Shown here piece after piece: positions 598 to 22,413 of a stretch of 64,000 nt of DNA. The stretch is from Paraburkholderia sp. Tr-20389 (GTDB lineage: Bacteria; Pseudomonadota; Gammaproteobacteria; Burkholderiales; Burkholderiaceae). Below the pieces are notes generated by a model, which was given only the letters and a program-made list of their open reading frames with translations, was not told the DNA's origin and did not search any database. The position numbers and the translations under genes are program-made. Numbering within the stretch: position 1 is the stretch's first letter; each line of letters opens with the position of its first letter. The stretch lies in assembly GCF_017104565.1 (NCBI RefSeq), contig NZ_JAAGPD010000006.1, forward strand, positions 226,129 through 290,128, read 5' to 3'.

Positions 598-649
598 AAT
601 AATTTCGACGTCCGACTCAACCAGTGCCTGCGGACGCCGCTACGAGCGA

Positions 650-1903
650 TCAGCCTTCTCGCTCGACAGTGAACAATTCCCGGTTGATGAAGCCAGCCAC
701 TTTGCTTCGAATGTATGTGTGGTTTTGGTTCATATAAACCGCATAGCCAAGCCGGTCATCGGAATTGCGCAATCCCTGAATAGTTCGAGGTAACCCGAAG
801 GATTTCTGTCGAACGAACTCATTATCAAGGAGCGTAAACCCGCTCACATGGCCCGGTTCTTCTTCGGTAATGAAGCCGATGGCCGCAAACCCATTCCGAG
901 TCGGCACCGCTTCGTCCCCGAGTGGTAGATTCATATTGGCACACACCATCATGCGAATCGGGTCATAGCCGCGAGCCAGCGTCATAAGTTCCGCAATCAT
1001 GTCGCCACCCGGCCGTGGATTCACTTCGATAACGTGAAAGCGCCCGCCGTCAACCTTGAACTCGACGTGGGCAAACGTGCTGCGTAAATCGATCGCCGAC
1101 ATGACCGCGAGCAGGCCGCCCGAAATCTCCCTGTCCAGTTCTGCATCGAACTGATGAGGATAGATGTGGGCGAGTTCAACGCATCGAGGCGGTGGCGTAA
1201 TGAATTTCTTCGTAATCCCCAGGATTCGCCACACGCCGCCGTTCGGATCCCAGACCATCTCGGCACTGAACTCGTCGCCACCGACATATTCTTCGACGAT
1301 GAATTTCCGCGACGACGAATAGCCGCGACTGTTGACCGCTGGTAGCGCCAGAATGTCGCCCACGGCCTCTCGCATATCCGTGGCGCTGTAACACACACGC
1401 ACCGCGACGCTACCGTTCTCGTCAACAGGCTTGACCACGCAGGGAAAGCCGAATGGCGGCTCATCGATCGCAGCCATGGCGTTCGCTTCGTTGAACACGA
1501 TGTGACGCAGCTCATAGCGCGACCCGGAAAGTTTCTTGCGAAGCACGCTCTTGAATCGGCATGCCAGCAACGCTGGCACCGACGGATGCGCGTTATTCCC
1601 GAGGTACCGGTTGACGATCGAGGACTGCAGCACACGGAAATCATCGAACGCCAGGCACGCGACGATTTTTCGCTCCGATCCGTAAGCGAAATCGAGGATC
1701 TTTCCGATGTCGTAGGTATCCACCAACGCAACCTCGTCCGCCACATCGGTCGGATTGGTCACCGAGTTTCGATACTCACCGACATCACGGCTCAGGAAGA
1801 TGGTGTGATAGCCCATCTCCTTCAAATACTGGATGGCCGAGTACCCATACCCCGACAAATTTGACTCGAGAATCAATACAGCGTCTTTCAATCTCAGCTC
1901 CAT
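650..1903 (-). CDS. ATP-grasp family ligase (last gene of the N-N bond operon)
   Basis: A 417-residue ATP-grasp enzyme of the carbamoyl-phosphate-synthase/peptide-ligase type. The central nucleotide-binding motifs are clear: FPCVVKPVDENGS (about 155-167), IVEEYVGGDEFSAE (about 203-216), and the metal-binding VIEVNPRPGGD (about 294-304). The N-terminal ILESN-SGYGYSAIQYLKEMGY resembles the pre-ATP-grasp fold of amino-acid ligases. Such enzymes activate a carboxylate as acyl phosphate and form an amide with an amine, often in dipeptide natural products. It lies 42 bases behind the GST-like gene and ends the ten-gene unit, so I infer that it joins the N-N-containing amino acid to another amino acid or carboxylate. 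The substrate cannot be read from the sequence. Confidence 0.85.
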   Translation of the reverse strand: MELRLKDAVLILESNLSGYGYSAIQYLKEMGYHTIFLSRDVGEYRNSVTNPTDVADEVALVDTYDIGKILDFAYGSERKIVACLAFDDFRVLQSSIVNRYLGNNAHPSVPALLACRFKSVLRKKLSGSRYELRHIVFNEANAMAAIDEPPFGFPCVVKPVDENGSVAVRVCYSATDMREAVGDILALPAVNSRGYSSSRKFIVEEYVGGDEFSAEMVWDPNGGVWRILGITKKFITPPPRCVELAHIYPHQFDAELDREISGGLLAVMSAIDLRSTFAHVEFKVDGGRFHVIEVNPRPGGDMIAELMTLARGYDPIRMMVCANMNLPLGDEAVPTRNGFAAIGFITEEEPGHVSGFTLLDNEFVRQKSFGLPRTIQGLRNSDDRLGYAVYMNQNHTYIRSKVAGFINRELFTVEREG

Positions 1904-1945
1904 TTGAATGATCCATTCACGCGCGTAGGTCCAGGTTGTTGCTGA

Positions 1946-2638
1946 TCACGCCGCAGCCAACGCGTTCGCGTACCGCTCGAGCTCCAGCAGGATGACTGGC
2001 TCGTGGTGGGCCGCATCGACCCAATCGCAATACGAAGCACGCGACAGCACAAAATCCAGATAACCGCCGATCAATGAATCCGTGATGTCGAGGTATGTCG
2101 ACGCGCGTGACATCATCGGCAACACCATCGCATCGACGATCGAGTATTCGCCGAACAGGAACGGCCCACCGGACGCTTCCAGCGCGATGTGCATGCCGCG
2201 CGTCAGGCGTTCCCACTCGTCCCCCACTGCCCCCGTCGGCCTCATGCGCTTGTCCATTCGTCTTGTGCACCAAAATGGGAAGGTTGAGCGGATTAATGCG
2301 AATTCGCTCTGCAGTTCGGTCGCGAGCGAGCGTGCGAATGCCCTCGTCGCCCGATCATGCGGCCAGAGCCGGCCATCGCAGTACTCTTGCGAGACATACT
2401 CGCAAATCGCAAGCGTTTCCCAAATGACGATCGATCCATCGTGAAGCACCGGAACGCGCGACGACGGATGGACAAGCGCGGCCGCCTGCTTGAAGTCGTC
2501 GGTGAACTCGCGGGATCCCGGAATCGCCTCGAACGGGATCACGATTTCCTCGAACAGAACCGCCGCTTCACGCAACAGTGACCACGGACGCAGTGACCAC
2601 GACGAATACTTCTTGGTACCGCAGTAAAGCTTCAACAT
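1946..2638 (-). CDS. Glutathione S-transferase-fold protein
   Basis: A 230-residue protein with an N-terminal thioredoxin-like GST domain: MLKLYCGTKKYSSWSLRPW, with SSWS at the position of the catalytic Ser in zeta/bacterial GSTs, and SSRVPVLHDG with the cis-Pro that binds glutathione. The C-terminal half is the helical GST domain (FLFGEYSIVDAM). The ATG is preceded by AGGTGA. It starts 6 bases after the deacylase stop, so the two are translationally close. In biosynthetic operons GST-fold proteins act as isomerases, dehydratases or glutathione-dependent lyases, or detoxify reactive intermediates; a reactive hydrazine or hydroxylamine would fit, but this is inference. Confidence 0.85.
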   Translation of the reverse strand: MLKLYCGTKKYSSWSLRPWSLLREAAVLFEEIVIPFEAIPGSREFTDDFKQAAALVHPSSRVPVLHDGSIVIWETLAICEYVSQEYCDGRLWPHDRATRAFARSLATELQSEFALIRSTFPFWCTRRMDKRMRPTGAVGDEWERLTRGMHIALEASGGPFLFGEYSIVDAMVLPMMSRASTYLDITDSLIGGYLDFVLSRASYCDWVDAAHHEPVILLELERYANALAAA

Positions 2639-2644
2639 TGCTGG

Positions 2645-3592
2645 TCACCTGTCCGCATCCACGCCAACGGCGCATACGACATCGCCTTTGTTGATCGCCA
2701 GCGTATTAACGAAAAACAGGACAATCCCCTCGTCCTTTGCGAGCGGAACGTAGCCGCCGTCGCACAGCAACGTGTCAAGTCGCCCGACCGCCGTCCCGCG
2801 GGACACCTTCATCCCGGGCTGAATCTGCGGATACCACAACCCGTCCAGCTCGGAGGTCAGCGTCCTGAGTGATAGTTCTCGCGGTATCTGAGACGCCGGC
2901 ATGGCTTCTCCGCACATGCCCAGATGGACCATGACTCGATGAATGCCATCCGTGAGTTGCTGCACGCAAGCGTCGTCGACGCTACCCGAATGCCCCGCCT
3001 CGACCAGGATTCCGGGCACATCGATCGAAGAGCTCGCACGGCAGCTGAACCCGTCGCGCGGCGCACCGACGATGTAAGGCAAGCCAAACACCGCCGCGAG
3101 CACGCGACTTGCTTCGTTCCCCGCATCGAAGAACGTGAACGGCGTCAACGCTTCGCCAATGTCGCCGGAATGCACGTCGATATAGGCGTCGGATATCGAT
3201 ATCACCTTCGAGAACAGCGCGTGAGCCAGTCGATCGCTCGCGCTTCCATCGGGCGAGCCCGGAAACAACCGGTTGAGGTTCTTGCCATCGACAGGATTCT
3301 CGGACACGCTGCGCTTTTTGAACCCTGCCGTGTTCACGACAGGCATGACAATCAGCGTTCCGCTGCGCAATCGATCCGCGTCCCTAGACAGCCGGACCAC
3401 CGCCTCGATACCGGTGTATTCGCTCGCATGGACGCCACCCGTGACGGTCAGAACCGGGCCAGGCACTTCCGAACGAATCACAAAGAACGGGATAGGATGG
3501 CGCATGTCGTCATCGACGACGAAATAGCCTTTGCTCGTACGTCCGACCGGGAACTGATTCAGGTCGAACTCGTTGAAGTTGATAATCGTCAT
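2645..3592 (-). CDS. Zinc-dependent deacylase, succinylglutamate desuccinylase/aspartoacylase family (DoeB-like)
   Basis: A 315-residue M14-related AstE/AspA family enzyme. Zinc ligands are visible as GGVHASEYTG (His55, Glu58) and DVHSGD (His141), the substrate motif as DGKNLNRLFPG (about 102-112), and the catalytic Glu in VEAGHSG (Glu199). The ATG at 3592 is chosen over the upstream in-frame ATG because GAGAG precedes it and the family start (short N-terminus) fits. Family members remove N-acyl groups from amino acids; one subgroup, DoeB, hydrolyses N-acetyl-2,4-diaminobutyrate in ectoine breakdown. Because an EctB-like diaminobutyrate aminotransferase is in the same operon, an acylated diaminobutyrate-derived substrate is a reasonable inference. 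Confidence 0.85.
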   Translation of the reverse strand: MTIINFNEFDLNQFPVGRTSKGYFVVDDDMRHPIPFFVIRSEVPGPVLTVTGGVHASEYTGIEAVVRLSRDADRLRSGTLIVMPVVNTAGFKKRSVSENPVDGKNLNRLFPGSPDGSASDRLAHALFSKVISISDAYIDVHSGDIGEALTPFTFFDAGNEASRVLAAVFGLPYIVGAPRDGFSCRASSSIDVPGILVEAGHSGSVDDACVQQLTDGIHRVMVHLGMCGEAMPASQIPRELSLRTLTSELDGLWYPQIQPGMKVSRGTAVGRLDTLLCDGGYVPLAKDEGIVLFFVNTLAINKGDVVCAVGVDADR

Positions 3593-3643
3593 GGTTCTCT
3601 CGAAATAATGGAACATCGATTCGATTCCCTAACACCGCGCCGC

Positions 3644-4885
3644 TCAAACCGTCTCAGGCCGCTCGGACGCTACGTGGGCCTCTTTTCGACTTGTCACGGC
3701 GTGCAGCACGAGCACGAATAGGCAGATCATCGAAAGCACCGCGAACAGTCCAGTGCCGCCTAGGTACTGAAGAAGTCCGCCGCCAAGCAACGGCGCGACC
3801 GCGCTGCCGAGCGAGTACAGGTTGCCGGCACCGAAGTAGCTGCCGCGGAGGTCGTCGGGCGTCAAGCGATCGATCTTCACGCTGAACGTCGGGAACACGA
3901 TCAGTTCGCCGAGGCTCAACACGATCGTCGCCAGAACGAGTATCGACATCTGCTTTACGCCCGCTGTGGCGAAACCGACCTGCGCAGCGAACATGAGCGC
4001 CAGGCCTATCGTGAGCCTCAACTCGATCGAACGGGCTTCGAGCAATCTCAGCACCGGAAATTGCGCGATGGTCACTGTCGCAGCGTTCACGGCAATCAAC
4101 CAGGCGACCAGGCGACGGCCGCCGTCCGGACTGGATCGAGCGATGTACTGGACCAACGTCGAATCAAAATTCGCGTAGACCAGCGCGACCAGCATGTTGC
4201 AGATCAACAGGGTTACAAAGGCGCGATGGCCGAGAATTCGTGCGCACGCATCGGAAAAGCTTCCCTGCTCGCCAGGGACCTGCGCTGCCTTGCGTGGTTC
4301 GAGCTGCCGCAGCAGGGCCCAAAGCACCGCGCCATAGACAAGATGAATCACCCCCACCGTCATGAAAGTCGTGAGCGGATTGGCGATCCCGGCAGTCACC
4401 CCGATGAGCGCCCCCGCGGCGACGCCAATGTTCAATGCGAAGTAGCGAAAATAGAGCGCGAACTCGCGATCACCGGCATCGGTCACGCGATCCCCGATCA
4501 GCGCCTTGCAGCAGGCTTCCAGTTGAGCGCAACCCATGCTTACCACAAGAATCGACACCGAGTAGCCCGTCAACGAATCGCTTGCGCTCATGAGCATGTA
4601 GCCGATCGCCGCCACCACCGTGCTGATGCTGATGACGGCTCTGCGCCCGTACCTGTCGGACAGATAACCCGCATAAATGCCGCTGAATGCGCCGCACGCC
4701 GTTGCTACCGCCAGAAAGCCGCCCACCGCGATTGCCGGCAGGCCGAACTTTTCGAACAGCGTGATTGAAAAGAACGGCCAAGCCATGTAGTAGCCGCCCC
4801 GCGTCAGCAACGTGCCCAGCAACATCATGTGGATCTCGCGAGGAAGCCGGCGATATCGCGCCATTTGAAAGATTCTCGTTTCCAT
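3644..4885 (-). CDS. MFS transporter, probable product exporter
   Basis: A protein of about 413 residues with twelve predicted membrane segments and the MFS motif A GYLSDRYGRRAV between segments 2 and 3. Overall it resembles drug/H+ antiporters of the DHA1/MdtH type (RGGYYMAWPFF near the start). An ATG at 4885 is preferred over the longer frame beginning at 4987, which would overlap the aminotransferase; a GGGGGA stretch lies about 17 bases upstream, so the start is not firm (ATG 4864 is also possible). Its position within a biosynthetic operon suggests export of the product or self-resistance. Confidence 0.85.
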   Translation of the reverse strand: METRIFQMARYRRLPREIHMMLLGTLLTRGGYYMAWPFFSITLFEKFGLPAIAVGGFLAVATACGAFSGIYAGYLSDRYGRRAVISISTVVAAIGYMLMSASDSLTGYSVSILVVSMGCAQLEACCKALIGDRVTDAGDREFALYFRYFALNIGVAAGALIGVTAGIANPLTTFMTVGVIHLVYGAVLWALLRQLEPRKAAQVPGEQGSFSDACARILGHRAFVTLLICNMLVALVYANFDSTLVQYIARSSPDGGRRLVAWLIAVNAATVTIAQFPVLRLLEARSIELRLTIGLALMFAAQVGFATAGVKQMSILVLATIVLSLGELIVFPTFSVKIDRLTPDDLRGSYFGAGNLYSLGSAVAPLLGGGLLQYLGGTGLFAVLSMICLFVLVLHAVTSRKEAHVASERPETV

Positions 4886-4968
4886 CAGGTATTCCCATCC
4901 CCCACAATCCTGCAGATGTCTGCCGGCCGCTACGGAACCGCGATCCGGAGCGGCCTGCGCGGCCTCGA

Positions 4969-6285
4969 CTACAACGAAGCGATGCACTCGTCGATCAACT
5001 TGATCGTCCGCTCGAGCAACGTCGCAGGAATCGTCAACGGCGGCATGAGTTTCAGGACTTCGCCACGCGGCCCCGACATCTCCATCACCACCGCCCGATC
5101 AAACATCGCCGCGCGAACGCGCAGCGCATCTTCCGGCCGCGCGAATTCGATTCCCTGAAAGAGGCCGCGGCCCTTTTTCCGGACCAGCAACTTCGGATGC
5201 TTCTTCAGCACCGCCTCCAGTCCCAGATCCATGACCTGAATGTTGTCGTCGAGTTGCCCGAGAAAATGCGCGTCTTCCCAGTACGACAACGCGGCTCTCG
5301 CCGCCACGAACGCAAGGTTGTTGCCGCGGAACGTGCCGTTATGCTCGCCTGGCGCCCAGATGTCGTACTTAGGGGCGATGAGCACGATCGCCATTGGCAG
5401 CCCGTTCCCGCCGATCGACTTCGACAGGCAAATCACGTCCGGTTGAATTCCGAACCGCTCGAAACTGAAGAACGTTCCGGTGCGACCACACCCTGCCTGA
5501 ATATCGTCGATGATGAGCAACGCCCCCAACTCGGTGGCCAGCGCCTGCAGGCCGCGCAACCATGCCTCAGACGCGACGTTCAGACCGCCTTCCCCCTGAA
5601 CGGTCTCGACGATGAACGCGGCCGGCTTCGCATACCCAGAACTCGGATCGCCGAACAATTGGCGCGCGTAAGCGATTGAGTCGAAGTTCCCATCGATGTA
5701 ACAGTCGAACGGCAAGCGCACCACATCGTTCAACGACACACCCGCGGCGGAGCGCTTGAAGTCGTTACCTGTGGCCGCCAGCGCGCCAAGCGAGACACCA
5801 TGGAAGCCGTTGGTGAACGACGCGACCACCGTGCGCCCTGTCGCCTTGCGAGCCAGCTTCAATGCGGCCTCGACAGCATTCGTGCCGGTCGGCCCGGTGA
5901 ACTGGATGCGGTAGTCCATGCCGCGCGGACCGAGCACGATTCGCGCGAAATCGCGAAGGAACGCCACCTTGGCCGTCGTCGCGAGATCGAGTCCTTGGAC
6001 GACCCCGTCGTTGAGCAGGTACTCGACCACCGCATCCTTGATGCGTGCATCGTTGTGCCCGTAGTTGACCGACCCGGCGCCAGCCAGCAGGTCCACATAG
6101 GCGTTGCCTGCTTCGTCGTACAGCAGCGCCCCCTTCGCAGTCGAAAATACGGTCGGAAAGCCACGTGAGTACGACCGGACATTCGACTCGATCCGCTCGA
6201 CGGCGCTCATACCGCATTCATCGACGATGGCCCGGCTCGCTTCCTGTTCTGCAATGTAACCTTCCAGCTTTTCCTCGATATACAT
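4969..6285 (-). CDS. Class III aminotransferase, EctB-like (L-2,4-diaminobutyrate--2-oxoglutarate)
   Basis: A PLP enzyme of about 438 residues closely matching the EctB/Dat pattern: ESNVRSYSRGFPTVF, LAGAGSVNYGHN, QFTGPTGTNAVEAALKLARK, IIDDIQAGCGRTG, and the PLP lysine in CLSKSIGGNG (Lys289). EctB-type enzymes transaminate L-aspartate-4-semialdehyde with glutamate to L-2,4-diaminobutyrate. No ectA (acetyltransferase) or ectC (ectoine synthase) is present, so the operon is not for ectoine. I infer that it supplies diaminobutyrate as precursor for the N-oxygenase or the ligase. The ATG at 6285 has AGGAG 5 bases upstream; a GTG two codons earlier is possible but overlaps that site. Confidence 0.9.
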   Translation of the reverse strand: MYIEEKLEGYIAEQEASRAIVDECGMSAVERIESNVRSYSRGFPTVFSTAKGALLYDEAGNAYVDLLAGAGSVNYGHNDARIKDAVVEYLLNDGVVQGLDLATTAKVAFLRDFARIVLGPRGMDYRIQFTGPTGTNAVEAALKLARKATGRTVVASFTNGFHGVSLGALAATGNDFKRSAAGVSLNDVVRLPFDCYIDGNFDSIAYARQLFGDPSSGYAKPAAFIVETVQGEGGLNVASEAWLRGLQALATELGALLIIDDIQAGCGRTGTFFSFERFGIQPDVICLSKSIGGNGLPMAIVLIAPKYDIWAPGEHNGTFRGNNLAFVAARAALSYWEDAHFLGQLDDNIQVMDLGLEAVLKKHPKLLVRKKGRGLFQGIEFARPEDALRVRAAMFDRAVVMEMSGPRGEVLKLMPPLTIPATLLERTIKLIDECIASL

Positions 6286-6309
6286 GGTCACTCCTGCAAT
6301 TCGGTTGAT

Positions 6310-7629
6310 TTATTTGAGATCCTTACGATCTTCGGAACGATAATAGGCACCGATGAGCGGCATGAGCGATCGAGCAATCCGATAGCTGAGCGACGGGCGG
6401 ATCGTGTCCGAAAAGAACGGGCAATGAGCCCGCTCTCCATCACCGATATAGCGAGCCAACGCGAACCCTGCCGACACCGAGGTCGGCACGCCGTGACCGC
6501 AATAGCCACCGGCGAACAGAACACGCTCACTGACATGGCCGATCCGTGGTGTTCGATCGCGCGTGAAGGCGAGGCGGCCGCCCCAGCATCGGGCGACGGT
6601 GGGGAGCTCTATAGCGTCGCCGAACAGCTCGCGCGCCGCCGCCGCCAGTTCGTTGCCGATGTCCGCGAAATCACCGTATGACGCCAGTGATTTCCGTCCA
6701 CCGAACAACAGCGTTCCATCCTCAAGAATCCGGAAGTAGTTCGAGTAATTGCTGATCGTGGAGGCCACTTTTCCCGTCGGAAGCAGACGCCTTCGAGTGT
6801 CTGGCGACAACGGCTCGGTCGCGACGATGAAGCTGCCCAACGGAACGGTGAAGTGTTGCGCCCCGATACCGAGGGATTCGCTGTATCCGTTGGTCGCAAC
6901 CACGACGCACTGTGCGCGCACGACGCCGTGCTCGTGTGTCACTTCGACGTCCGACGACGACTCGCGCACCCGGATGACAGGCGCGTCCTCGTGAACGCTC
7001 GCCCCGTGCTTCAACGCGATTCGCGCCAACTCTCCCACCAGCTTGCGCGGGTTCAGACATGCGCTCGTCCTATCCGAGATGGCTGCGACGAATCCCGTCG
7101 CGCCGATGTGTTCGCGCAGCGCGGCTCCATCCAGAAATTCGATCGGAAGACGAAACACGTCGTGCTGGATGTCGAAATTTCGCCTGAGACGTGCCGCATG
7201 ACGCGCGGAGCACGCAAGCGACAATCGGCCGGATACCCGCCAATCAATGTCGAGACATTCCTCTTCGACGAGCTTCTGAATCGAGCTCACCGCGTTCAGG
7301 AACCATCGAAAATACCGCGCTCCTTCTTCGGCCCCGTAAGCCTCGAGTACGGACGACGCCGATGCGGACGGCCCGATCGTGCAGAAGCCGGCGTTCCGAG
7401 AACTTGCGCCGAAACCGATCTGGCGGGCCTCTAGCAACACAACGTCACGCCCGCTCTTCGCCAGCGCGTAGGCCGTCGCAAGACCGGTGAAACCGCCTCC
7501 GATGATCACTGTGTCGGCGACCGCCGGCACCGCCGGTGACATCGTCACGACGCGCGCGGGCCCCGCCCAGACCGGTACGCCAAAGCCTAGGTCTGACCGC
7601 TCGGAAGCGGTGTGGCCGTTAGGCTTCAA
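6310..7629 (-). CDS. FAD-dependent oxidoreductase, D-amino-acid/glycine oxidase (DAO) family
   Basis: A 439-residue flavoprotein with the dinucleotide-binding fold VIIGGGFTGLATAYALAKSG (about 42-61) and ending ...LEA, the DAO-family C-terminal FAD contact VLFAGGYCGHGV, and the RNAGFC segment after the first strand. The start is a TTG at 7629, supported by GGAGGGAG six bases upstream; it overlaps the stop of the N-monooxygenase by 11 bases, indicating translational coupling. In characterised hydrazine-synthetase pathways (Spb39 and Tri27 types) a homologous flavoenzyme oxidises the N-N-linked adduct at the C-N bond to release a hydrazino acid. The same role is inferred here. Confidence 0.88.
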   Translation of the reverse strand: MKPNGHTASERSDLGFGVPVWAGPARVVTMSPAVPAVADTVIIGGGFTGLATAYALAKSGRDVVLLEARQIGFGASSRNAGFCTIGPSASASSVLEAYGAEEGARYFRWFLNAVSSIQKLVEEECLDIDWRVSGRLSLACSARHAARLRRNFDIQHDVFRLPIEFLDGAALREHIGATGFVAAISDRTSACLNPRKLVGELARIALKHGASVHEDAPVIRVRESSSDVEVTHEHGVVRAQCVVVATNGYSESLGIGAQHFTVPLGSFIVATEPLSPDTRRRLLPTGKVASTISNYSNYFRILEDGTLLFGGRKSLASYGDFADIGNELAAAARELFGDAIELPTVARCWGGRLAFTRDRTPRIGHVSERVLFAGGYCGHGVPTSVSAGFALARYIGDGERAHCPFFSDTIRPSLSYRIARSLMPLIGAYYRSEDRKDLK

Positions 7630-8932
7630 TTGCTGCTCCCTCCACCGTCTTCAGGGACGCCCGCAGTGCCGACGAGATTTCTACGGCGCGCAGAGACAGG
7701 ATGCTGAACGAGCCCGCATCACCGAGCCCGTGCGAGGATTCGCACAGCCCGTTCACGAAGAACGGCGGCGTTCCGTCCACATCACGTGGCTGCAGTGAGT
7801 AGTTCCGGTTGATTTGCAAGCCTCCGTTCCGATCCGCTGCGAATGCGGCGCGAATGCCGGTCATCAGCGGATGAATCGGTTCCTCGGCCAGACCTCGCCC
7901 GAAGTTCTTGAAGCCGGTGGCCAGAACCACGGCATCCACCTGCAGGGATTGCCTTGCGCCGGTAAGCCGCTCGAGTATCTCGATGCGATAGCGGTCGCCT
8001 TCACGCTCGCACGCCTCGACCTCGTGGCTGCGATGCATCCGGATAACCTCTTTGCCTTCGATCCTTTGCGCATACAGCCTCAGATAGAGCTTATGGATCA
8101 CGTCGCCGTCGGCGGACGAGTAGTTTGTCGCCTTGAGTTCTGCGTTGAGTATCCGTTTGCCCTCGTCGCTCGCGTTGTAGTAGTAGTCGACGAACTCAGG
8201 GAAATAGACCTCTTCGCTAAACGGACTCGTATCCTTGAGACGGAATGAGTAAGCGCGATGCACGGCGTGCACCGTTGATGCGGGAAAGCGCGCGGCCAGA
8301 TCGAGCACAAGCTCGGCAGCACTTTGGCTACCTCCGATCACCGCGATGGCTCCGCCAGCTTCGAGTCTGTCGGCTACCAGCGTAAGCGACTGCTCGTAAC
8401 GAGTCAGATGAAAGACGTCCGGACCGGCCGCTGGCTCGAATACCTGCGGAATGTTCGGCGTACGCCCGGGTGCGAGCACGACGCTGCGCGCATACCACGT
8501 TGCATCGCAAGACTCGATGCGATAAAGGAGCTCACCCTTGACCGTTGTGAGGCTGATCGACTGCACATCCACGCCGTACCGCACGTGCTGCGCAAAATGC
8601 CGGGCCACCCACACCACGTAGTCGGCATACTCGCGTCTTAACGGGAATGTGATTCCTAGGTTAAGAAAATCGAATAGCCGCTTGTGGACGTGGAGATAGT
8701 TCGTGAATGAATAGTAGCTACGCGGATTGGCCGGAGTGACCAGGTCGCGCAGCGGATGATTCTGGATGTCAGAGTCATCCAGCAGCATTTCTCGCTGCCA
8801 GCCAGGTGACTGATGCCGCTCTAGAAACACGTAACTGCCGTCAAATCCGCGCTCTTCGAGTGCAACGGCAAGCGCAATGTTGGCGGGTCCGAATCCGATG
8901 CCGACGAAATCCAGTACGTTCATGTTTGTCAC
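7619..8932 (-). CDS. L-lysine/L-ornithine-type N-monooxygenase
   Basis: A 437-residue class B flavin N-hydroxylase of the PvdA/IucD type. The FAD motif GIGFGPAN lies at 11-18, the conserved DDSDIQNHPLRDLVTP segment at 52-67, the NADPH motif GGSQSAAE at 200-207, and the late ATGF at about 352. The family adds one oxygen to the side-chain amino group of ornithine, lysine or diaminobutyrate. Siderophore genes are not adjacent; instead the gene sits between a MetRS-like gene and a DAO-type oxidase, as in hydrazine pathways, where the N-hydroxy amino acid is the N-N coupling partner. The GTG at 8932 has an AGG about 10 bases upstream; the ATG at 8923 is the alternative. Confidence 0.92.
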   Translation of the reverse strand: MTNMNVLDFVGIGFGPANIALAVALEERGFDGSYVFLERHQSPGWQREMLLDDSDIQNHPLRDLVTPANPRSYYSFTNYLHVHKRLFDFLNLGITFPLRREYADYVVWVARHFAQHVRYGVDVQSISLTTVKGELLYRIESCDATWYARSVVLAPGRTPNIPQVFEPAAGPDVFHLTRYEQSLTLVADRLEAGGAIAVIGGSQSAAELVLDLAARFPASTVHAVHRAYSFRLKDTSPFSEEVYFPEFVDYYYNASDEGKRILNAELKATNYSSADGDVIHKLYLRLYAQRIEGKEVIRMHRSHEVEACEREGDRYRIEILERLTGARQSLQVDAVVLATGFKNFGRGLAEEPIHPLMTGIRAAFAADRNGGLQINRNYSLQPRDVDGTPPFFVNGLCESSHGLGDAGSFSILSLRAVEISSALRASLKTVEGAAIEA

Positions 8933-8953
8933 GATTTGTATACCTGTGCGGGA

Positions 8954-10534
8954 TTAGATCAAGGCAGCCATGGGCTTTGACAGAGACCAGGTGAGATCAG
9001 TAATCTCAGGTTGAACCTCCCAACCTGTGATACTCGGCATCTCCAGACGCACCCTGATGCCCGCCGCGCTTTCCGGCATGAGAGGAGCGAGAACCACTGG
9101 CAGCACGTTCGCGACCAGCCCGTAAACAAAGGCTACCTGCTGACGGCCGATCGACGGCACCACGTCGGAGAGACAGTTCGATGCATAGATCAGTAGCGCA
9201 CTGACGTGTTCAGCAATGCGCTGCGGGCTGAACTTCTCAACCGTATAAAACTGTTCGAAGCGGTCCAAAATCGACTGCAATTCAGTACGTTGTTCGGCCG
9301 TCACCTCGAGTCGGTCGCCTGGTCGTACGCCCGCACGTGCGGCCGCATCGATCAACTGCGCGTCGACCTTGCGCCACGGCGAGATCAATCGAGCGTCTAG
9401 AAGTTTGTCCATTCCCGCACGCGTAAAATTGACCTTCTGATGCTCGGGGTTGCTGAGTGCTAGGTAATATCGCACACGATCTTTCGGCACTTCAGCTAAC
9501 AGATCACGGCCCCAGATAAGGTTGCGCTTGCTTGTCGAGAACTTGAAGTTCTCGAATTCATAGAACTCGTTTGTCACGATGAAGTCCGGTTGCCGCATTC
9601 GCCCGTCGGCAAACGACATTGCCAAGTGCACCAGCGCGAAAAAGAACGAGTTGTCGTAACCGAGAAACTGCACGATGCGGGTGTCCGCGGTACGCTCCCA
9701 GTGCAATGAGCCGTCGTGACGTTTGCCTGCTGCGATCTCGGCTGCATGGATCAGCCCCGGCATCATTTCCGCCCACACGTTGAACACCTGTCCCTCGTGT
9801 CCCGGGATCTGTGCTGGAATCCCCCAATCCGAGACATATGTGACCGGATAGTCGGGCAGCGGGCGGGCGAGCAACTCGTCCACCAGTTGCAGCAAATGCG
9901 GCCGCCAGTGCTTCGACTTCTCCGAGAAGAACCGCGTGATTTCCTGACGATAGCGTTCCAACTCGAGTACGAACAGCTTCACTTCGGAGCGAACGAGTCC
10001 GTGCTTTGGTGCGATCGCGTTACGAGGAAGCTTGAGGGTCGTGGCATCGTTCGGATGGCCACAGTTCTCGCAGATCGCGCCAGCAGTCTCGGCAAAGCAC
10101 ACAGCGCAATGTCCACGCAGGTAGGACTCGAATATCATTGAGCCGTCCACCGCATCCGTCCAGACGTGCTTGGTCTTCGACGTCAGCTTTCCGTGCTCGT
10201 AGAGCCGCTGGAAAAACTTCTGGACGAATGCGACGTGTTCAGCATCCGGGTTGTGAAATGTGTCTGCTTCGATACCCGCCATTTCCAACGTTTCGCGAAT
10301 CTTGTCGGCATAGTCATCGGCCAGCGCCATCGGCATCGCATTCATCTTTGCCGCCGTGGAAACGACATAGGTCTGGTTGTGATCCGAGTAAGAGACGTAA
10401 GCTGCCGTCTCGTTCTTCAGTCTTAGGTATCGCGTATAAATATCGGCACCGAGATACGGGCCGCAGATGTGACCGACATGCAGGTCACCATTCGGGGTGG
10501 GGGGCGTCGCAGTGACGATTGTCGTTCTTGTCAT
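8954..10534 (-). CDS. Methionyl-tRNA-synthetase-like protein, putative hydrazine synthetase catalytic half
   Basis: A 526-residue class I aaRS-like protein. It keeps the HIGH-type HVGH (19-22), a KMSKS-type KFSTSKR (331-337), and two CxxC pairs of the zinc knuckle (Cys143/146 and Cys155/158). The methionine-pocket region differs from housekeeping MetRS: the usual VWLDAP segment reads NVWAEMMPG (252-260). The protein is short and shows no EMAP/tRNA-binding tail. In hydrazine synthetases the MetRS-like domain activates an amino acid as adenylate and esterifies it to the N-hydroxyl of the partner, and the cupin domain then rearranges the ester to the N-N bond. Those enzymes are typically cupin-MetRS fusions; here the two parts are separate neighbours. 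A translation role is unlikely given the operon. Confidence 0.88.
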   Translation of the reverse strand: MTRTTIVTATPPTPNGDLHVGHICGPYLGADIYTRYLRLKNETAAYVSYSDHNQTYVVSTAAKMNAMPMALADDYADKIRETLEMAGIEADTFHNPDAEHVAFVQKFFQRLYEHGKLTSKTKHVWTDAVDGSMIFESYLRGHCAVCFAETAGAICENCGHPNDATTLKLPRNAIAPKHGLVRSEVKLFVLELERYRQEITRFFSEKSKHWRPHLLQLVDELLARPLPDYPVTYVSDWGIPAQIPGHEGQVFNVWAEMMPGLIHAAEIAAGKRHDGSLHWERTADTRIVQFLGYDNSFFFALVHLAMSFADGRMRQPDFIVTNEFYEFENFKFSTSKRNLIWGRDLLAEVPKDRVRYYLALSNPEHQKVNFTRAGMDKLLDARLISPWRKVDAQLIDAAARAGVRPGDRLEVTAEQRTELQSILDRFEQFYTVEKFSPQRIAEHVSALLIYASNCLSDVVPSIGRQQVAFVYGLVANVLPVVLAPLMPESAAGIRVRLEMPSITGWEVQPEITDLTWSLSKPMAALI

Positions 10535-10625
10535 CTTCCACTCTCGGATTTTTGCCTCTCTAACATATTTTTAGTAAGGTATCCAAACTTAGATGATTAT
10601 CATAAAGTCGTATTCCTGTTGCCTT

Positions 10626-10967
10626 TCAGGCGGATGTTGGCGCTCCCCACCAGATGCAAAGCAGCTCAAGCGGCGTTGTCGACGAGACGTTTCTCAGCTT
10701 GTGAGTGCTGAAACGCGGCAGATAGATCATGTCGCCCTTCTCGACAGCGCATCGCTCACCCTCGACTTCCATCTCACCGTTTCCCGACAAGATCAGGAAC
10801 GTTTCTTCTTCGTCGTGATCGTGAGGAGTGGATGCCTGATCAGGAGCGATCGTCATCCATGCACCTCCCCACGAGGGAGTAGTAACGCCATCCCACGGAT
10901 ACAGCCGACGGAAGTCCCCGCCGTATTCCGCTTTGACCACGTCAGTGCTGGCTTTCCGTACCTTCAT
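10626..10967 (-). CDS. Single-domain cupin, putative N-N bond-forming partner of the MetRS-like protein
   Basis: A 113-residue cupin with both metal motifs: TPHDHDEEETFLILSGNG (His49, His51, Glu55) and GDMIYLPRFSTHKLRN (His89), giving a complete 3-His/1-Glu site. The ATG at 10967 is chosen because GAGGA lies just upstream and it starts 13 bases after the dioxygenase stop; the longer frame from 11027 would overlap that gene. Its size equals the cupin domain fused to the N-terminus of known hydrazine synthetases (Spb40 type), where a metal-bound cupin catalyses rearrangement of the aminoacyl-O-N ester into a hydrazine. The neighbour MetRS-like gene follows after 91 bases. A role as a trans-acting half of that enzyme is inferred. 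Confidence 0.85.
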   Translation of the reverse strand: MKVRKASTDVVKAEYGGDFRRLYPWDGVTTPSWGGAWMTIAPDQASTPHDHDEEETFLILSGNGEMEVEGERCAVEKGDMIYLPRFSTHKLRNVSSTTPLELLCIWWGAPTSA

Positions 10968-10980
10968 TTGCGCGTCCTCG

Positions 10981-11961
10981 TTAGAAAGAATGATCGACCG
11001 AAGGGTTCGACAACAGACCCCAAACACTTATCAGGTCGTCGGCTCCAATCATCGACTCGTGACGCGTACCATAGATTCGCTTCAGCCACCGCCACCCTGC
11101 AACTTCTCCACGGCCGTGAATGCAGCGATTGTTGTTGAAGATGAGCAATTCTCCGGGCTGCAGGACGATTCGGCGGCATGCAGTCTGTGCAAGCGCCTTG
11201 AGCTCGGCAATCGCCGCTTCCGCCCGCTTGTCTGTCGACTGCGTGAACACGGCCCAGCGGATTTCGTCGAAGCCGTCCACGCTTTTGATCACCGGCGAAT
11301 TCGTCGCGAAAATCTTGTATTTGTTGAGGTTGAACGAATCAGCATGTCGAAAATCGAAGATGCTTTGGCGCAATACGTTCAACGTTTCGGTCGGCAAGCT
11401 GCGTTTGATCTCGCCAATCGTCAGCAAATGTGTCGCGGTTTCGGAGTCGTTGTTGATACTCACGAGTGTGAGCACTTCAGGGCGCCCGACCCGGGGCAGA
11501 AAAGGATTGTCGACATGAAAGCCGAACTCGATTCGTCCCGCGTTCGATTGCGCGTTTTCCGACCCGGGAATGGGACATACATCATGCAGGATGGCACCGC
11601 CCTTCTCTTCCCGATATCCGAAATTTCGCAAACCGACATTTCCGGTCAGACCGGCGAGGATGGCCGAAGTAAATGGCGTTTCGCTCGTCGCCCACTTCTC
11701 GGTCGGTTGGTCGACGGGAAGATTCCGCAGAATGAAAAATGGTTCATCCGTCTCGAATAGCTGATTCCTGACGCGCTCGACAGGAATACCAGCCTCGCGT
11801 ATCGCCGCAGCGAATCGCGTGTTCTTTCGATCGAATTCCAAGCGAACCTCCCGACTGATCGCCGCTCGCAGACCATCGCGGCTTGAGTCGTTCAGCGTAT
11901 ATTCGTATTCGCTGGAGACATGACAAGTCTCAACTCGCTTTGCATCGATATCTTCTCTCAT
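10981..11961 (-). CDS. Fe(II)/2-oxoglutarate dioxygenase, clavaminate-synthase-like/TauD superfamily (first gene of operon)
   Basis: A 326-residue enzyme with the iron-binding facial triad FGFHVDNP (His149, Asp151) and distal His282 in NNNRCIHGRG, plus a 2-oxoglutarate-binding Arg in the following WLKRIYGTRH segment. Length and motif spacing match the clavaminate-synthase-like group, which includes beta-hydroxylases of free amino acids such as arginine and asparagine. The ATG at 11961 follows AGGGG; the longer frame starting with TTG at 11985 lacks a site. As first gene of the operon it may hydroxylate or desaturate the amino acid precursor or the final product; the sequence does not say which. 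Confidence 0.87.
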   Translation of the reverse strand: MREDIDAKRVETCHVSSEYEYTLNDSSRDGLRAAISREVRLEFDRKNTRFAAAIREAGIPVERVRNQLFETDEPFFILRNLPVDQPTEKWATSETPFTSAILAGLTGNVGLRNFGYREEKGGAILHDVCPIPGSENAQSNAGRIEFGFHVDNPFLPRVGRPEVLTLVSINNDSETATHLLTIGEIKRSLPTETLNVLRQSIFDFRHADSFNLNKYKIFATNSPVIKSVDGFDEIRWAVFTQSTDKRAEAAIAELKALAQTACRRIVLQPGELLIFNNNRCIHGRGEVAGWRWLKRIYGTRHESMIGADDLISVWGLLSNPSVDHSF

Positions 11962-11969
11962 GCGGTCCC

Positions 11970-12011
11970 CTAAAAAAATAAGCAACGCTTCTTTAGCATT
12001 CTTTGCGTTGC
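11970..12011 (-). terminator. Hairpin plus U-tract just upstream of the operon's first gene
   Basis: On the minus strand GCAACGC (12011-12005) pairs with GCGTTGC (11988-11982) around a 16-base loop and is followed by TTATTTTTTTA (11981-11971). The A/T tract ends next to the AGGGG ribosome-binding site of the dioxygenase gene. The structure looks like an intrinsic terminator. It could stop read-through from the IS relic upstream or, if the promoter lies before it, act as a leader attenuator. The stem is only 7 bp, so strength is uncertain. Confidence 0.5.
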
Positions 12012-12179
12012 GGGTGTGCTACTGGCTAAGGAAACATTGATCAATGAGCCGATCGCAGTTGGTTTGGCGCTTGTGGTTCGAAATTTTTAAAGCGAGAAGG
12101 CCACCGAGGAAAAATCTGAGTACTTGCTCCGCCGACTTCCTGCTTTTTGAACTCAAGACAGACTTCTCACCTGACACTG

Positions 12180-12619
12180 TCACAGCCGCGTACGCGCTGT
12201 CACAAGGTTCGCCACCGCGAACAGGCAGAACGGCCGCTCCGTGCCGGACCAGTCCTCGGCAGCGCACTTCGCGATGTCGGAACAGGTTCTTGACGACATA
12301 GATTGGGGGGATTGGCCCACGTGCGAATCTGCGCCTTGGTGCATCTTCGGGGCACAACCATTTATGGAATTCTTGGCCGACGGGGACGCCATCGAGGATG
12401 GCCCTATCCACGATACGTCCCTTCCTTCATCATCAGCCCGCGCTCACATAGCTCGATCCCGATCTCATCTAACAGCATTTGCGTCAGCTCATCTTCAACC
12501 AGTAGGTGCCGGATTCTCGGCAGTGCGGTGGCGTCAGATACGTTCCCGCGTACCAGATCGGTGCTTAGCACGCGTGTAGAGCGTGGCCTCAACAACTTGT
12601 TCGATCCTTGCAAGCTCAT
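12180..12619 (-). pseudogene. IS5-family transposase relic
   Basis: Two overlapping minus-strand frames carry recognisable IS5-group transposase pieces. The first (12619-12404) reads NVSDATALPRIRHLLVEDEL, then ...ELCERGLMMKEGT, like the family DATTILxFRHLLE and ...LxxRGLMLKxGT. The second (12392-12180) reads MASPSAKNS...APKMHQ, like IxAPSSTKN...DPEMHQ, and ends ...FCLFAVANLVTAR, like the family LFALANLWMAR. The reading frame changes between them and the middle (AHIGVD, DDE core) is missing. It is a degraded copy on the upstream side of the N-N bond operon. From 12620 to 12863 I see only AT-rich sequence without a gene. Confidence 0.6.
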
Positions 12620-12863
12620 CAGTCAATTTTTTTGCACTATATAGGGTCGGACGCCGTACCTGCACTAACAGTATCGATAGGTTTTTGGGATTGAATATTG
12701 GTGTACGAGGCACAATTCCTCGCCTCGTTTAAGTATTTTTAACATTTAACGGAAGCATCTAATTCGACATCCTAATTGATCGAAATATCTAACTAGTGAT
12801 CGCTTGAGGAAACGGAAAATAAAGCGCGTTTAGCTGCAGCTCCCAAGGAGCGGGGGTAGCCGG

Positions 12864-13180
12864 TTATGGTTCGGCGAATGCCTCGTCCATCTGCCGGTAG
12901 CGTTTGATTTCGTCGCTCTGGAGGTAGATCGATGTCGTCGCGATCAAGACGAGGCGCAAATTGTCGCGCACTGCCGTCAGCTCCGCACCGCGGGTGAGTG
13001 CATGCGTGGCGTGGGTGTCCCGCGTCCAGTGCGGGCTGGCGCGTCGCAGTTTTTCGGCTAGCACAGGATGGATTTGTGCCAATCACATCGGCGGTCATGC
13101 GGAAAAAGCGACGCGCTATGTACCACAGACGGGAACGGGTGAGGCCCGTAGCACTGGCGCTGCGCATCAGCGTGCCGCCG
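12864..13180 (-). pseudogene. Tyrosine-recombinase (integrase) C-terminal relic, frameshifted
   Basis: Frame one (from about 13173) reads RLWYIARRFFRMTADVI, and a second frame (13082-12864) continues LAEKLRRASPHWTRDTHATH and then ALTRGAELTAVRDNLR, TTSIYLQSDE. Together they match the end of XerC/phage-type integrases (HWxRHTHATHAL...GAxLxxVRDNLRH...TTxxYLH). The HxxR box is kept as HWTR, but the segment after DNLR lacks the expected catalytic His, and the N-terminal half is absent. It marks an old integration event. Bases 13201-13415 hold nothing I can assign. Confidence 0.6.
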
Positions 13181-13654: not shown

Positions 13655-14575
13655 TAAGAGACCGCTTCAAAAAGACCCCGAGGGGGCTGTTAACCTTATC
13701 GCCAAGCTGTTAACCTTGGTCGTCTGAACAACCGGAACCACGGGGATGGGCGCACCGATCATTGATGACGAACTATGGGCATTGATAGAGCCTTTGCTGC
13801 CACCGGCAAAACCCACGCCGCAAGAAATACCCAGGACGGCTCCCGGTTTCCAACCGGGCTGCACTGAACGGCTTCCTGTTCGTATTCAAGACCGGAATAC
13901 GCTGGTGCAACCTCTCGACCAAGCTGGGATTCGGCTCCGGGCCAACCTGCTGGAGGCGTTTGCGCGATTGGCAAAGGGCCGGCGTGTGGAGCGCGTTGCA
14001 CGAACTGCTGCTTGCGAAGTTACGCGAAGCCGGCGAACTCGATTTCTCACGGGCAGCGACCGATTCATCCTCGGTGCGAGCCGTTGGGGCGGGCGAAAAA
14101 CTGGCCCGAACCCCACCGATCGCTCGCGACCAGGTTCGAAGCATCACATCCTCGTCGACGCCAATGGCGTCCCCATCAGTGCCATCCTGACTGGCGCGAA
14201 TCGCAACGACGTTACCCAGTTGCTGCCGCTCATCGACGCGGTCCCGCCACTTCGCGGCGTACGCGGCCGACCGCTTCGCACGCCCAAAGTCATCTACGCA
14301 GATCGTGGCTATGACTCCGAGCCGCATCGTCAGCGGCTTCGTGCGCGCGGTATCGAACCGGTGATTGCCAGGCGCCGCACGGAACACGGCAGCGGACTCG
14401 GCAAGTCCCGTTGGGTGGTCGAACGTACTCACGCAGGCTGCACAATTTTCGCCGTCTTCGCATTCGCTTTGAGCGTCGAGCCGACATTCACGAGGCATTC
14501 CTTAAACTCGGTTGTGCGCTCGTCTGCTGGAACATCTTCAGACGTACCGAGCAGTCTTTTTGAAACGGTCTCTAA
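13655..14575. mobile_element. IS427-group (IS5 family) insertion sequence with TAA target duplication
   Basis: The element spans 13658-14572 (915 bp). Its ends are inverted repeats GAGACCGCTTCAAAAAGAC (13658-13676) and, at 14554-14572, GTCTTTTTGAAACGGTCTC, which differ at one position. It is bracketed by TAA at 13655-13657 and 14573-14575, the 3-bp TNA duplication typical of the IS427 group. A transposase reading frame lies inside on the plus strand. The intact termini and duplication show a relatively recent insertion, although the transposase has since been damaged. Confidence 0.88.
13746..14563 (+). pseudogene. IS427-like transposase, frameshifted
   Basis: The N-terminus MGAPIIDDELWALIEPLLPP is normal; around 13806-13822 the coding frame shifts by one to KKYPGRLPVSNRAALNGFLF, which continues to RDWQRAGVW and DFSRAATDSSSVRAVGAGEK. 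At the A5 run near 14096 it shifts back to TGPNPTDRSRPGSKHH and VIYADRGYDSE; this second shift fits the programmed -1 frameshift used by the IS427 group. A third shift, a missing base near 14430, precedes LHNFRRLRIRFERRADIHEA and the end WNIFRRTEQSF. The first and third are disabling, so the enzyme is dead unless supplied in trans. Confidence 0.8.
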
Positions 14576-22347: not shown

Positions 22348-22375
22348 GGAACTCTCCGTTCTGCAGCGGTTGCAC

Positions 22376-22413
22376 AAAAAACAAAAAGGCCGCCGGTTTT
22401 TCAACGGGCGGCC
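22376..22413 (-). terminator. Intrinsic terminator in the cysS leader (attenuator)
   Basis: On the minus strand GGCCGCC (22413-22407) pairs with GGCGGCC (22394-22388), flanking a 12-base segment, then TTTTTGTTTTTTG runs to 22375. It lies 28 bases before the cysS ATG and 31 bases after the leader-peptide stop. A terminator in this position only makes sense as a conditional one, which together with the Cys-codon leader indicates transcription attenuation. Confidence 0.8.

Follow-up and report, generated by a model that had tools for sequence, protein, structure and literature searches.

The 64,000-nucleotide stretch of Paraburkholderia sp. Tr-20389 DNA analysed here (the window) holds an operon of ten genes, all on the minus strand, at positions 650–11985 when the longest open reading frames (ORFs) are taken. 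The first-pass annotation had described ten co-directional and tightly spaced genes, and this observation is confirmed. Measured between the longest ORFs, the intergenic gaps are −47, 91, 21, −11, 18, −19, 27, 6 and 42 bases from the first gene to the last, and the 11-base overlap is the junction of the N-monooxygenase (NMO) and the DAO-type flavoenzyme (DAO). The dioxygenase ORF has its first ATG at 11961, and its longest form opens with TTG at 11985. Pfam and NCBIfam profiles identify, in gene order, a TauD/clavaminate-synthase-like protein, a cupin, a tRNA-synt_1g protein, a Lys_Orn_oxgnase protein, a DAO, an EctB-type aminotransferase and MFS, AstE/AspA, GST and ATP-grasp proteins, which agree with the family names given before. 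Two copies of an IS element (DDE_Tnp_1), 99.7% identical and in direct orientation, flank the operon on both sides, one at 13655–14575 and the other 4188–3268 bases to the left of the window. Promoter and terminator scans of window positions 11900–12900 found neither element, and phage records gave no match at E ≤ 1e-30.

The same ten-gene block is found in Burkholderia sp. WSM2232 with 77.2% DNA identity. When 52 kb of the own DNA is compared with 32 kb of WSM2232 (blastn, E ≤ 1e-5), window positions 633–11981 are the only aligning stretch, and no flanking sequence is common to the two genomes in the compared stretches. The dN/dS values against WSM2232 range from 0.069 to 0.135 across all ten genes, which indicates purifying selection. 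Thus, the sole aligning block and the low dN/dS show that the operon is more than a chance grouping. A decayed island was also considered and is ruled out by the conservation of all ten genes. The full gene combination occurs in one other genome only among those searched, since the scan of genome contigs, a set that may omit near relatives of the window, returned WSM2232 alone. The MetRS-like gene (E ≤ 1e-60) and the ATP-grasp gene (E ≤ 1e-30) are found in the same two of 145 genus genomes, and the class (0 of 368) and phylum (0 of 397) samples add no genome beyond the own one at E ≤ 1e-50.

The zinc cupin (10626–11027) is the predicted enzyme of the rearrangement that forms the N–N bond. Its residues His69, His71, Glu75 and His109 (longest-ORF numbering) keep the motif H-x-H-x3-E … H intact, including the metal ligands and the invariant catalytic glutamate. 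The spacing equals that of the published residues H50/H52/E56/H90 in PyrN and D63/H65/E69/H103 in RHS1, with a Glu-to-His distance of 34 in all three proteins, and the PDB matches of the cupin include 5UQP, which is RHS1. The stand-alone MetRS-like protein (8954–10534; tRNA-synt_1g, 1e-68) is the predicted subunit for amino-acid adenylation and ester formation. It carries the ATP-binding signatures HVGH and KFSTSK and reaches no NCBIfam MetRS cut-off. The genome also encodes a normal MetRS with a frame of 755 residues, compared with 526 in the MetRS-like protein. At the methionine-pocket sites, which we take to be E. coli MetRS positions 12, 13, 15, 52, 253, 256, 257, 260, 297 and 301, the MetRS-like protein reads T P T D W M M L N F and the own MetRS reads A L Y D W A P Y I H; pocket sharing takes in S. 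nigrescens as well. In the tree, the protein clusters with biosynthetic MetRS-like proteins that also stand alone (support 99), apart from the own MetRS, so the grouping with ordinary MetRS that would have spoken against the first reading does not appear. A structure prediction from a two-row alignment gave a mean pLDDT of 34.5, too low for use. Because the cupin ligands are kept, the MetRS-like pocket and tree position are distinctive and the block is conserved, the core, judged by its sequence, joins the known family of cupin/MetRS-like hydrazine synthetases as a new member.

The flavin NMO (7619–8932; Lys_Orn_oxgnase, 1e-91) is the N-hydroxylase of the cluster and a predicted L-2,4-diaminobutyrate (DABA) N4-hydroxylase. 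Joint conservation of the N-hydroxylase and MetRS-like genes had been anticipated and is borne out: an NMO match lies near the MetRS-like match at 26 of 27 other loci, or 23 of 24 once three loci retrieved via the NMO itself are removed. Arg62 of the NMO replaces Lys107 of SidA, which binds the substrate carboxylate according to PMC7347517. Arginine occupies this site in 10 of 26 aligned rows, including all seven close members of the NMO clade, and lysine in the other 16 as well as in two further rows read singly; the Pantoea NMO of locus L013 was omitted from the alignment owing to its interrupted frame. In addition, all seven close members carry another residue in place of SidA Asn293. An EctB gene is adjacent or one gene away in six of these seven, which span four orders, whereas the fetched surroundings of the other loci contain no EctB match (0 of 22), and the plasmid-borne nearest relatives of the NMO mostly lie beside ectB. 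The NMO is therefore placed, by these residues and neighbourhoods, in an EctB-linked Lys-to-Arg clade and not in the lysine-type kind seen in the hydrazine clusters compared, which points to diaminobutyrate as its substrate.

Regarding the supply of DABA, the EctB-type diaminobutyrate–2-oxoglutarate aminotransferase (4969–6291), its predicted source, scores 584.6 bits against the TIGR02407 equivalog cut-off of 552.2. A genome search at E ≤ 1e-20 reveals no second DABA aminotransferase, and the next best protein is only 32% identical. NMO-linked EctB copies are not notably nearer to the window EctB than others are (54% for A. vitis, as much as 55% for further annotated ectB genes), so identity does not show co-inheritance with the NMO. 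EctB–NMO pairs also exist without a MetRS-like match in Mycetohabitans and A. vitis; thus, the pair alone is no proof of a hydrazine. Within the hydrazine synthetase family, PMC11705231 gives DABA as a proven partner, in the form of N4-hydroxy-DABA with Apy11/Apy9. Most synthetases in the MetRS-like branch of the window pair with Lys-type NMOs, so the use of DABA by this synthetase is a prediction.

The DAO (6310–7629; DAO, 8.8e-60) resembles AmaA and amine oxidases and is the predicted enzyme of hydrazine C–N cleavage. Its best NCBIfam match, pipecolate oxidase AmaA, scores 170 bits, where the cut-off is 600. In the tree, it falls among generic oxidases encoded in the same genome (twelve rows, eleven of them distinct; L064 and L068 are the same protein) with a support of 98, which drops to 89 once a Burkholderiaceae DAO of the MetRS-like locus L056 (28.5% match) is included. 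It lies outside the branch of seven hydrazine-cluster DAOs from Pantoea, Deinococcus, Streptomyces and rhizobia, but it may do the same job. The NMO, cupin, MetRS-like protein and DAO had been proposed together as a hydrazine synthetase core; this is supported for the first three, but not for the DAO as an orthologous fourth member.

The first gene encodes an Fe(II)/2-oxoglutarate dioxygenase similar to TauD, clavaminate synthase and VioC (10981–11985; Pfam TauD, 4.4e-9), with HxD at His157 (longest ORF) and a distal HGR. Its nearest solved structures are AsnO, VioC-like proteins and lysine 3-hydroxylase, and it is a probable hydroxylase of an amino acid or of the product. It is 79.6% identical to its WSM2232 counterpart, and the best 25 of 36 records in the search are all remote homologues, with values no higher than 34% along a portion of the protein. 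Downstream of EctB lie a predicted MFS exporter (3644–4987; MFS_1, 5e-35) and a zinc amidohydrolase (deacylase) similar to AstE, AspA and DoeB (2645–3616; AstE_AspA_cat, 1.9e-25), whose HASE and DVHSGD motifs presumably form the metal site of an AstE-like hydrolase and whose sole NCBIfam match, DoeB, is far below the cut-off. A GST-fold protein (1946–2638; GST_N_2, 1.5e-9; PRK15113 under the cut-off) precedes the last gene, which encodes an ATP-grasp enzyme (650–1903; ATP-grasp_4, 2.6e-25), a predicted amide or peptide ligase.

From these assignments, the operon very probably builds a small molecule with an N–N bond, and DABA is its likely nitrogen donor. EctB would convert aspartate semialdehyde to DABA, and the NMO would hydroxylate it to N4-hydroxy-DABA. 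The MetRS-like protein would adenylate an amino acid X and transfer it to the hydroxylamine oxygen, and the zinc cupin would rearrange the unstable ester to the N–N linked DABA–X hydrazine. The DAO would then oxidize the C–N bond beside the N–N bond, so that the two halves separate, the dioxygenase would hydroxylate a precursor or the product, the ATP-grasp ligase would add an amide bond and the MFS protein would export the product. Conserved residues, trees and neighbourhoods make the hydrazine synthetase steps a strong prediction and DABA as the hydroxylated partner a good one, while cleavage, hydroxylation, ligation and export are putative assignments by family. Taken as a whole, the best explanation is probably that the operon moves horizontally and directs the synthesis of a small metabolite with a hydrazine group, made via N4-hydroxy-DABA. 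More tentatively, DABA may be a recyclable nitrogen carrier. The DAO would attack the CH2–N side and free an α-hydrazino acid and aspartate semialdehyde, which EctB would re-aminate; the hydrazino acid would be hydroxylated by the dioxygenase, capped as a peptide by the ATP-grasp ligase and exported as a pro-drug-like inhibitor of PLP enzymes, with the AstE-like hydrolase and the GST serving to take off or protect this cap. If so, this hydrazine pathway would regenerate its own nitrogen donor, as no other known to us does, and its synthetase would join N4-hydroxy-DABA with an unassigned amino-acid pocket.

Other readings of the locus were weighed. A possible but doubtful one follows actinopyridazinone: X would be alanine, and the DAO would oxidize the Cα–N bond, as Apy10 does, to give 2-amino-4-hydrazinylbutyrate for closure to a six-membered pyridazinone or for ATP-grasp ligation. 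The use of N4-hydroxy-DABA by Apy9–Apy11, described in PMC11705231, fits this reading, as do the same-clade NMO and the EctB, cupin and MetRS-like matches in Xenorhabdus pXT29 and Vibrio halioticoli. However, none of the ten genes matches the carrier protein for ring closure or an adenylation domain, both of which the Xenorhabdus set has (the carrier by eye), the pocket at positions 256, 257, 260, 297 and 301 reads M M L N F here and G L Y C H in Xenorhabdus and Vibrio, and the DAO groups with generic oxidases. Somewhat less likely, the NMO would act on ornithine or lysine, and DABA would go elsewhere, for example as the building block that the ATP-grasp enzyme attaches. The NMO does resemble such hydroxylases (PvdA, 230 bits; best solved structure 5CQF, named L-lysine 6-monooxygenase, 265 bits, which also carries the arginine), and Arg-type NMOs without a nearby EctB match occur in three Burkholderiaceae and in Leisingera; the pairing with EctB and the replaced Asn293 site argue against it. 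It is improbable that the MetRS-like protein and the NMO yield an ester or hydroxamate of N-hydroxy-DABA, either siderophore-like or an antimetabolite, with no N–N bond and another role for the cupin. PyrN without a working cupin does give an N-acyl-hydroxylamine shunt product (PMC8664883) and the NMO family serves siderophores, but the cupin retains its catalytic glutamate and metal ligands, its gene is under purifying selection and pairs of stand-alone cupin and MetRS-like proteins are a published N–N system. Lastly, an ordinary MetRS is rejected and an extra or drug-resistant copy on an island is hardly credible, since, despite the tRNA-synt_1g match, the methionine pocket is lost, the tree position is away from the own MetRS, the protein is shorter and the model cut-offs are not reached.

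The preferred reading, a mobile hydrazine operon using N4-hydroxy-DABA, matters as metabolism seldom makes use of N–N bonds, and the enzyme families known to form them are few. The ten-gene set is minimal and could be cloned as a whole operon. Its predicted synthetase has a specificity pocket unlike the compared azaserine-like, Pantoea-like and Xenorhabdus-like enzymes, and the Arg-for-Lys exchange with a neighbouring EctB offers a sequence signature predicting diaminobutyrate hydroxylases. The first-pass annotation had called the operon a candidate for an undescribed one, which stands within the open-licence literature searched. Its actinomycete framing was too narrow: members have also been published from Pseudomonas, Ralstonia, Bacillus, Colwellia and Mesorhizobium, as listed in PMC11705231.

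Finally, we compared the operon with known systems. The two-protein cupin/MetRS-like synthetases (the RHS1 pair of Rhodococcus jostii; PyrN, Spb40, Tri28 and AzsN in fused form) have the same two catalytic parts and a neighbouring flavin NMO. The cupin ligands of RHS1 and PyrN are the same as in the window, judged from published residue numbers, whereas the pocket M M L N F is unlike the azaserine-type M A/S F N H. The plasmid clusters of Pantoea, Klebsiella and Deinococcus (L013, L015–L017) have a MetRS-like protein 39–40% identical to that of the window, a stand-alone cupin and an NMO, and those of Pantoea and Deinococcus also have DAO-like, MFS and ATP-grasp genes. However, their NMO is of the Lys type where readable (L015–L017), their pocket is G M S N W, their DAO belongs to another branch, and an annotated substrate-binding-protein gene is present instead of any EctB, TauD, AstE or GST match. 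The Streptomyces sp. BHT-5-2 plasmid (L087) combines an NMO, a cupin, a MetRS-like protein (41%), two ATP-grasp matches and a TauD-like protein (28.6%) in about 14 kb, but it has a Lys-type NMO, the pocket G I V N W and no EctB, AstE or GST match.

In Xenorhabdus sp. TCT-1 pXT29 and Vibrio halioticoli (L045 and L050), the NMO is 51% and 45% identical, EctB adjoins it and cupin and MetRS-like matches are present; however, the MetRS-like proteins are only 25–26% identical and form another branch, and Xenorhabdus has an adenylation protein and a cupin with a fused carrier-like domain (by eye), neither of which has a match among the ten genes. The actinopyridazinone pathway (Apy9, Apy10 and Apy11), compared by description, shares the use of N4-hydroxy-DABA predicted for the window, which has ATP-grasp, dioxygenase, AstE-like and GST-like proteins in place of the carrier and adenylation functions. 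In summary, because its NMO comes from the EctB-linked Arg clade and not from the lysine type of the known cupin/MetRS-like systems, the operon is, on the sequence comparison, a mosaic in which a probable DABA N-hydroxylase is joined with a synthetase from a different branch. This natural recombination of hydroxylase and synthetase branches would represent the substrate mixing sought by enzyme engineers.

The ten genes occupy positions 650–11985 of the window on the minus strand by ORF calling, and the intergenic gaps between the longest ORFs range from −47 to 91 bases. Domain profile matches identify them, in order of transcription, as a TauD/clavaminate-synthase-like dioxygenase, a cupin, a MetRS-like protein, a flavin N-monooxygenase (NMO), a DAO flavoenzyme, an EctB-type diaminobutyrate (DABA) aminotransferase, an MFS exporter, an AstE/AspA-like hydrolase, a GST-like protein and an ATP-grasp ligase. 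The coordinates and family names of the first-pass annotation are correct; its boundary at 11961 corresponds to the dioxygenase's first ATG, and the longest ORF of this gene reaches 11985. The host genome comprises 9.0 Mb in 129 contigs. The MetRS-like protein is present in two of the 145 genomes of the genus, this one counted (E ≤ 1e-60), and the ATP-grasp ligase, encoded by the last gene, is present in the same two (E ≤ 1e-30). The second genome is that of Burkholderia sp. WSM2232 (G089), in which the gene order is unchanged and the ten proteins are 78–85% identical to those of the window. When 52 kb of DNA from our genome was compared with 32 kb from WSM2232, the sole aligning stretch was window 633–11981 (77.2% identity), and the surroundings of the ten genes did not align. 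The dN/dS values are 0.069–0.135 across all ten genes (NG86 count; dS of 0.85–1.38, near saturation), and the GC content is 58.3% in the operon versus 61.7% at 15001–64000. Two IS copies of 921 bases each, 99.7% alike and in direct orientation, flank the operon on both sides like a composite transposon, at 13655–14575 and at 4188–3268 bases to the left of the window. Taken together, the shared genes without shared surroundings, the dN/dS values, the IS copies and the GC content suggest that the operon is a mobile unit under selection. About 9 kb from the operon, at 20953–22404 on the minus strand, lies a second cysteinyl-tRNA synthetase, possibly a resistance copy, which is 38.8% identical to another CysRS-like frame in the genome.

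We inspected 27 other MetRS-like loci, namely WSM2232, 16 plasmid loci picked from match lists and 10 of the 19 other Burkholderiaceae matches. An NMO match lies near the MetRS-like relative in 26 of them. Three of these loci, from Xenorhabdus sp. TCT-1 plasmid pXT29 (L045), Leisingera sp. S132 (L047) and Vibrio halioticoli (L050), entered the sample via the NMO search; therefore, the fair count for the joint conservation of N-hydroxylase and MetRS-like genes, the lack of which the first-pass annotation had named as a refutation, is 23 of 24. The sole locus of the 27 lacking an NMO match carries a truncated MetRS-like copy in Rahnella. On this R. sikkimica plasmid (L088, 11962–23541), the truncated gene is near TauD-like, MFS and three ATP-grasp genes, with neither an NMO nor a cupin match nearby. 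MetRS-like matches occur in 19 of 398 Burkholderiaceae genomes, our own counted (E ≤ 1e-30), and samples of the class (369 genomes) and the phylum (398 genomes) gave a match in our own genome alone (E ≤ 1e-50).

The MetRS-like protein retains the HIGH-type and KMSKS-type motifs. We compared its residues at E. coli positions 12, 13, 15, 52, 253, 256, 257, 260, 297 and 301, which we take to be those holding methionine in MetRS; they read T P T D W M M L N F, and those of the genome's own MetRS read A L Y D W A P Y I H. In a tree of 34 proteins (IQ-TREE), the MetRS-like protein is separate from this MetRS, as the first-pass annotation had anticipated, and shares a clade with the stand-alone MetRS-like proteins of Pantoea, Klebsiella, Deinococcus and Streptomyces angustmyceticus (support 99). 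The pocket of S. angustmyceticus (M L L N F) nearly equals that of the window (M M L N F), as does that of S. nigrescens, read from matching motifs. In contrast, the Pantoea–Deinococcus group carries G M S N W and the azaserine-like group carries M A/S F N H. The latter pocket can be assigned to glycine, because the gene content of one locus (L025) closely resembles the azs cluster in the available text of PMC10445470. WSM2232 has a second locus (L022) encoding a fused cupin–MetRS protein with this azaserine-type glycine pocket. The closest solved chains to the window protein, PDB 9L8V and 9VQ4, are named methionine-tRNA ligase and look biosynthetic by their motifs. Regarding the cupin, His69, His71, Glu75 and His109 (longest ORF) have a spacing equal to that of His50/His52/Glu56/His90 in PyrN and Asp63/His65/Glu69/His103 in RHS1, two published hydrazine synthetases. 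The study that gives these PyrN and RHS1 residues shows that an unstable ester is formed by the MetRS-like part and rearranged by the cupin to the N–N product, and that separate proteins work too (PMC8664883).

The nearest relatives of the NMO among the best 30 of 1,994 plasmid records are from Xenorhabdus (50.8% identity), Mycetohabitans (47–48%), V. halioticoli (45%), Leisingera (42%) and Agrobacterium vitis (39%). An EctB-type aminotransferase adjoins the NMO in four of these five, and a single gene, that of the DAO, separates the two in the window and in WSM2232. In the fetched surroundings, EctB accompanies the NMO at six of the seven loci of this clade versus none of 22 others (Fisher p 1.5e-5, with relatedness ignored and loci hand-picked). 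In the reference N-monooxygenase SidA, the ionic bond of Lys107 with the substrate carboxylate is described as essential in the available text (PMC7347517). We mapped residues to SidA numbering by manual count and compared them in a 26-row alignment. Position 107 is Arg in all seven NMOs of the clade, in PDB 5CQF and in three more Burkholderiaceae NMOs that have no EctB match in their vicinity. Lys occupies this position in the remaining 16 rows, in structures of the PvdA, MbtG, KtzI and SidA type and in two Streptomyces NMOs examined individually. The Lys-type NMOs of the fetched hydrazine loci are 26–35% identical to the window NMO, below the Arg-clade relatives. All seven clade members have Glu, Asp or Ser at the Asn293 position, and Asn323 is retained. 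A reasonable reading is that the longer Arg side chain would match a shorter substrate. No second DABA aminotransferase was found in our genome, the next match being 32% identical. This evidence points to DABA as the NMO substrate, and the use of DABA by this enzyme family is established for Apy11 and Apy9 of actinopyridazinone (PMC11705231). PDB 5CQF, deposited as an L-lysine 6-monooxygenase, has the loop insertion and Arg of the EctB-linked clade, and its substrate may be misnamed. The A. vitis locus (L051, 10651–21556) combines ectB and an Arg-type NMO with KASIII-like, iron-containing redox and carbamoyltransferase genes and has no MetRS-like match; it is perhaps another N-hydroxy-DABA pathway. 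In Mycetohabitans rhizoxinica pBRH01 (L046, 7913–15457), a DABA aminotransferase and an Arg-type NMO lie beside flavin hydroxylase, ring-hydroxylating dioxygenase and tautomerase genes, with no MetRS-like match near the pair.

The two trees place the window with different partners. In the NMO tree, where some inner branches are weak (45–76), its neighbours are Xenorhabdus, Vibrio, Mycetohabitans, A. vitis and Leisingera; in the MetRS-like tree it groups with Pantoea, Deinococcus and S. angustmyceticus, which have Lys-type NMOs where these are readable, and is separate from the Xenorhabdus and Vibrio synthetases. Thus, the operon has probably brought together a DABA-type hydroxylase and a synthetase from a different branch. 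Leisingera may be a second such case: its locus (9983–12721) has an Arg-type NMO, a cupin and an interrupted MetRS-like gene split into two frames, the pieces of which are 36–40% identical to the window protein and were left out of the MetRS-like tree. The 29-kb Xenorhabdus plasmid (6527–18889) carries MetRS-like, GNAT, adenylation, carrier–cupin fusion, DAO, NMO and ectB genes, a set resembling that of actinopyridazinone outside actinomycetes. The unannotated V. halioticoli plasmid record has NMO, EctB (in two frames), cupin and MetRS-like matches inside 11 kb.

The first-pass annotation had counted the DAO within the known hydrazine-synthetase core, but it falls outside the hydrazine-cluster DAOs. 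Searched against the DAO proteins of loci L013–L026, it gives no match with E under 0.005, and in a tree it joins generic oxidases encoded by the same genome (support 98), away from seven hydrazine-cluster DAO proteins. A weak match occurs in Xenorhabdus (4e-9). A further match (28.5%, 6e-26) lies inside a frame of 882 residues, which may encode a fused oxidase, beside NMO, MetRS-like and cupin matches in another Burkholderiaceae genome (G428, locus L056). With the latter added, the window DAO stays among generic oxidases (support 89), and its placement beside L056 is poorly supported (29); a generic oxidase may therefore have been recruited on more than one occasion. In NCBIfam, the window DAO comes closest to L-pipecolate oxidase AmaA, with a score far under the cut-off. 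Pipecolate oxidase acts on the carbon distal to the carboxylate. In the boldest reading, if the DAO cleaves the DABA side in this way, it would release aspartate semialdehyde, the EctB substrate, with DABA serving as a recyclable carrier of nitrogen.

Regarding later steps, the dioxygenase has HxD and the distal His at the usual places and resembles amino-acid hydroxylases. Clusters with a synthetase of the same branch in Pantoea and Deinococcus also have ATP-grasp and MFS genes, and Streptomyces sp. BHT-5-2 has ATP-grasp matches together with a TauD-like one. Because these genes recur in related clusters, a ligated, exported amino-acid-like hydrazine is a plausible product. The AstE-like hydrolase could perform a deacylation like that of the azaserine pathway, where a succinyl group is removed again (PMC10445470, in part); however, there is no acyltransferase among the ten genes.

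Finally, the cupin/MetRS-like family is described, in the accessible part of PMC11705231, from Pseudomonas, Ralstonia, Mesorhizobium, Colwellia and Bacillus besides actinomycetes, so the earlier actinomycete-only framing was too narrow. We found no published account of this gene set in the open literature searched, and the label of an undescribed operon is limited to that scope. In summary, the operon is a real, conserved variant of the known cupin/MetRS-like hydrazine synthetase systems, and its gene set is new within that scope.
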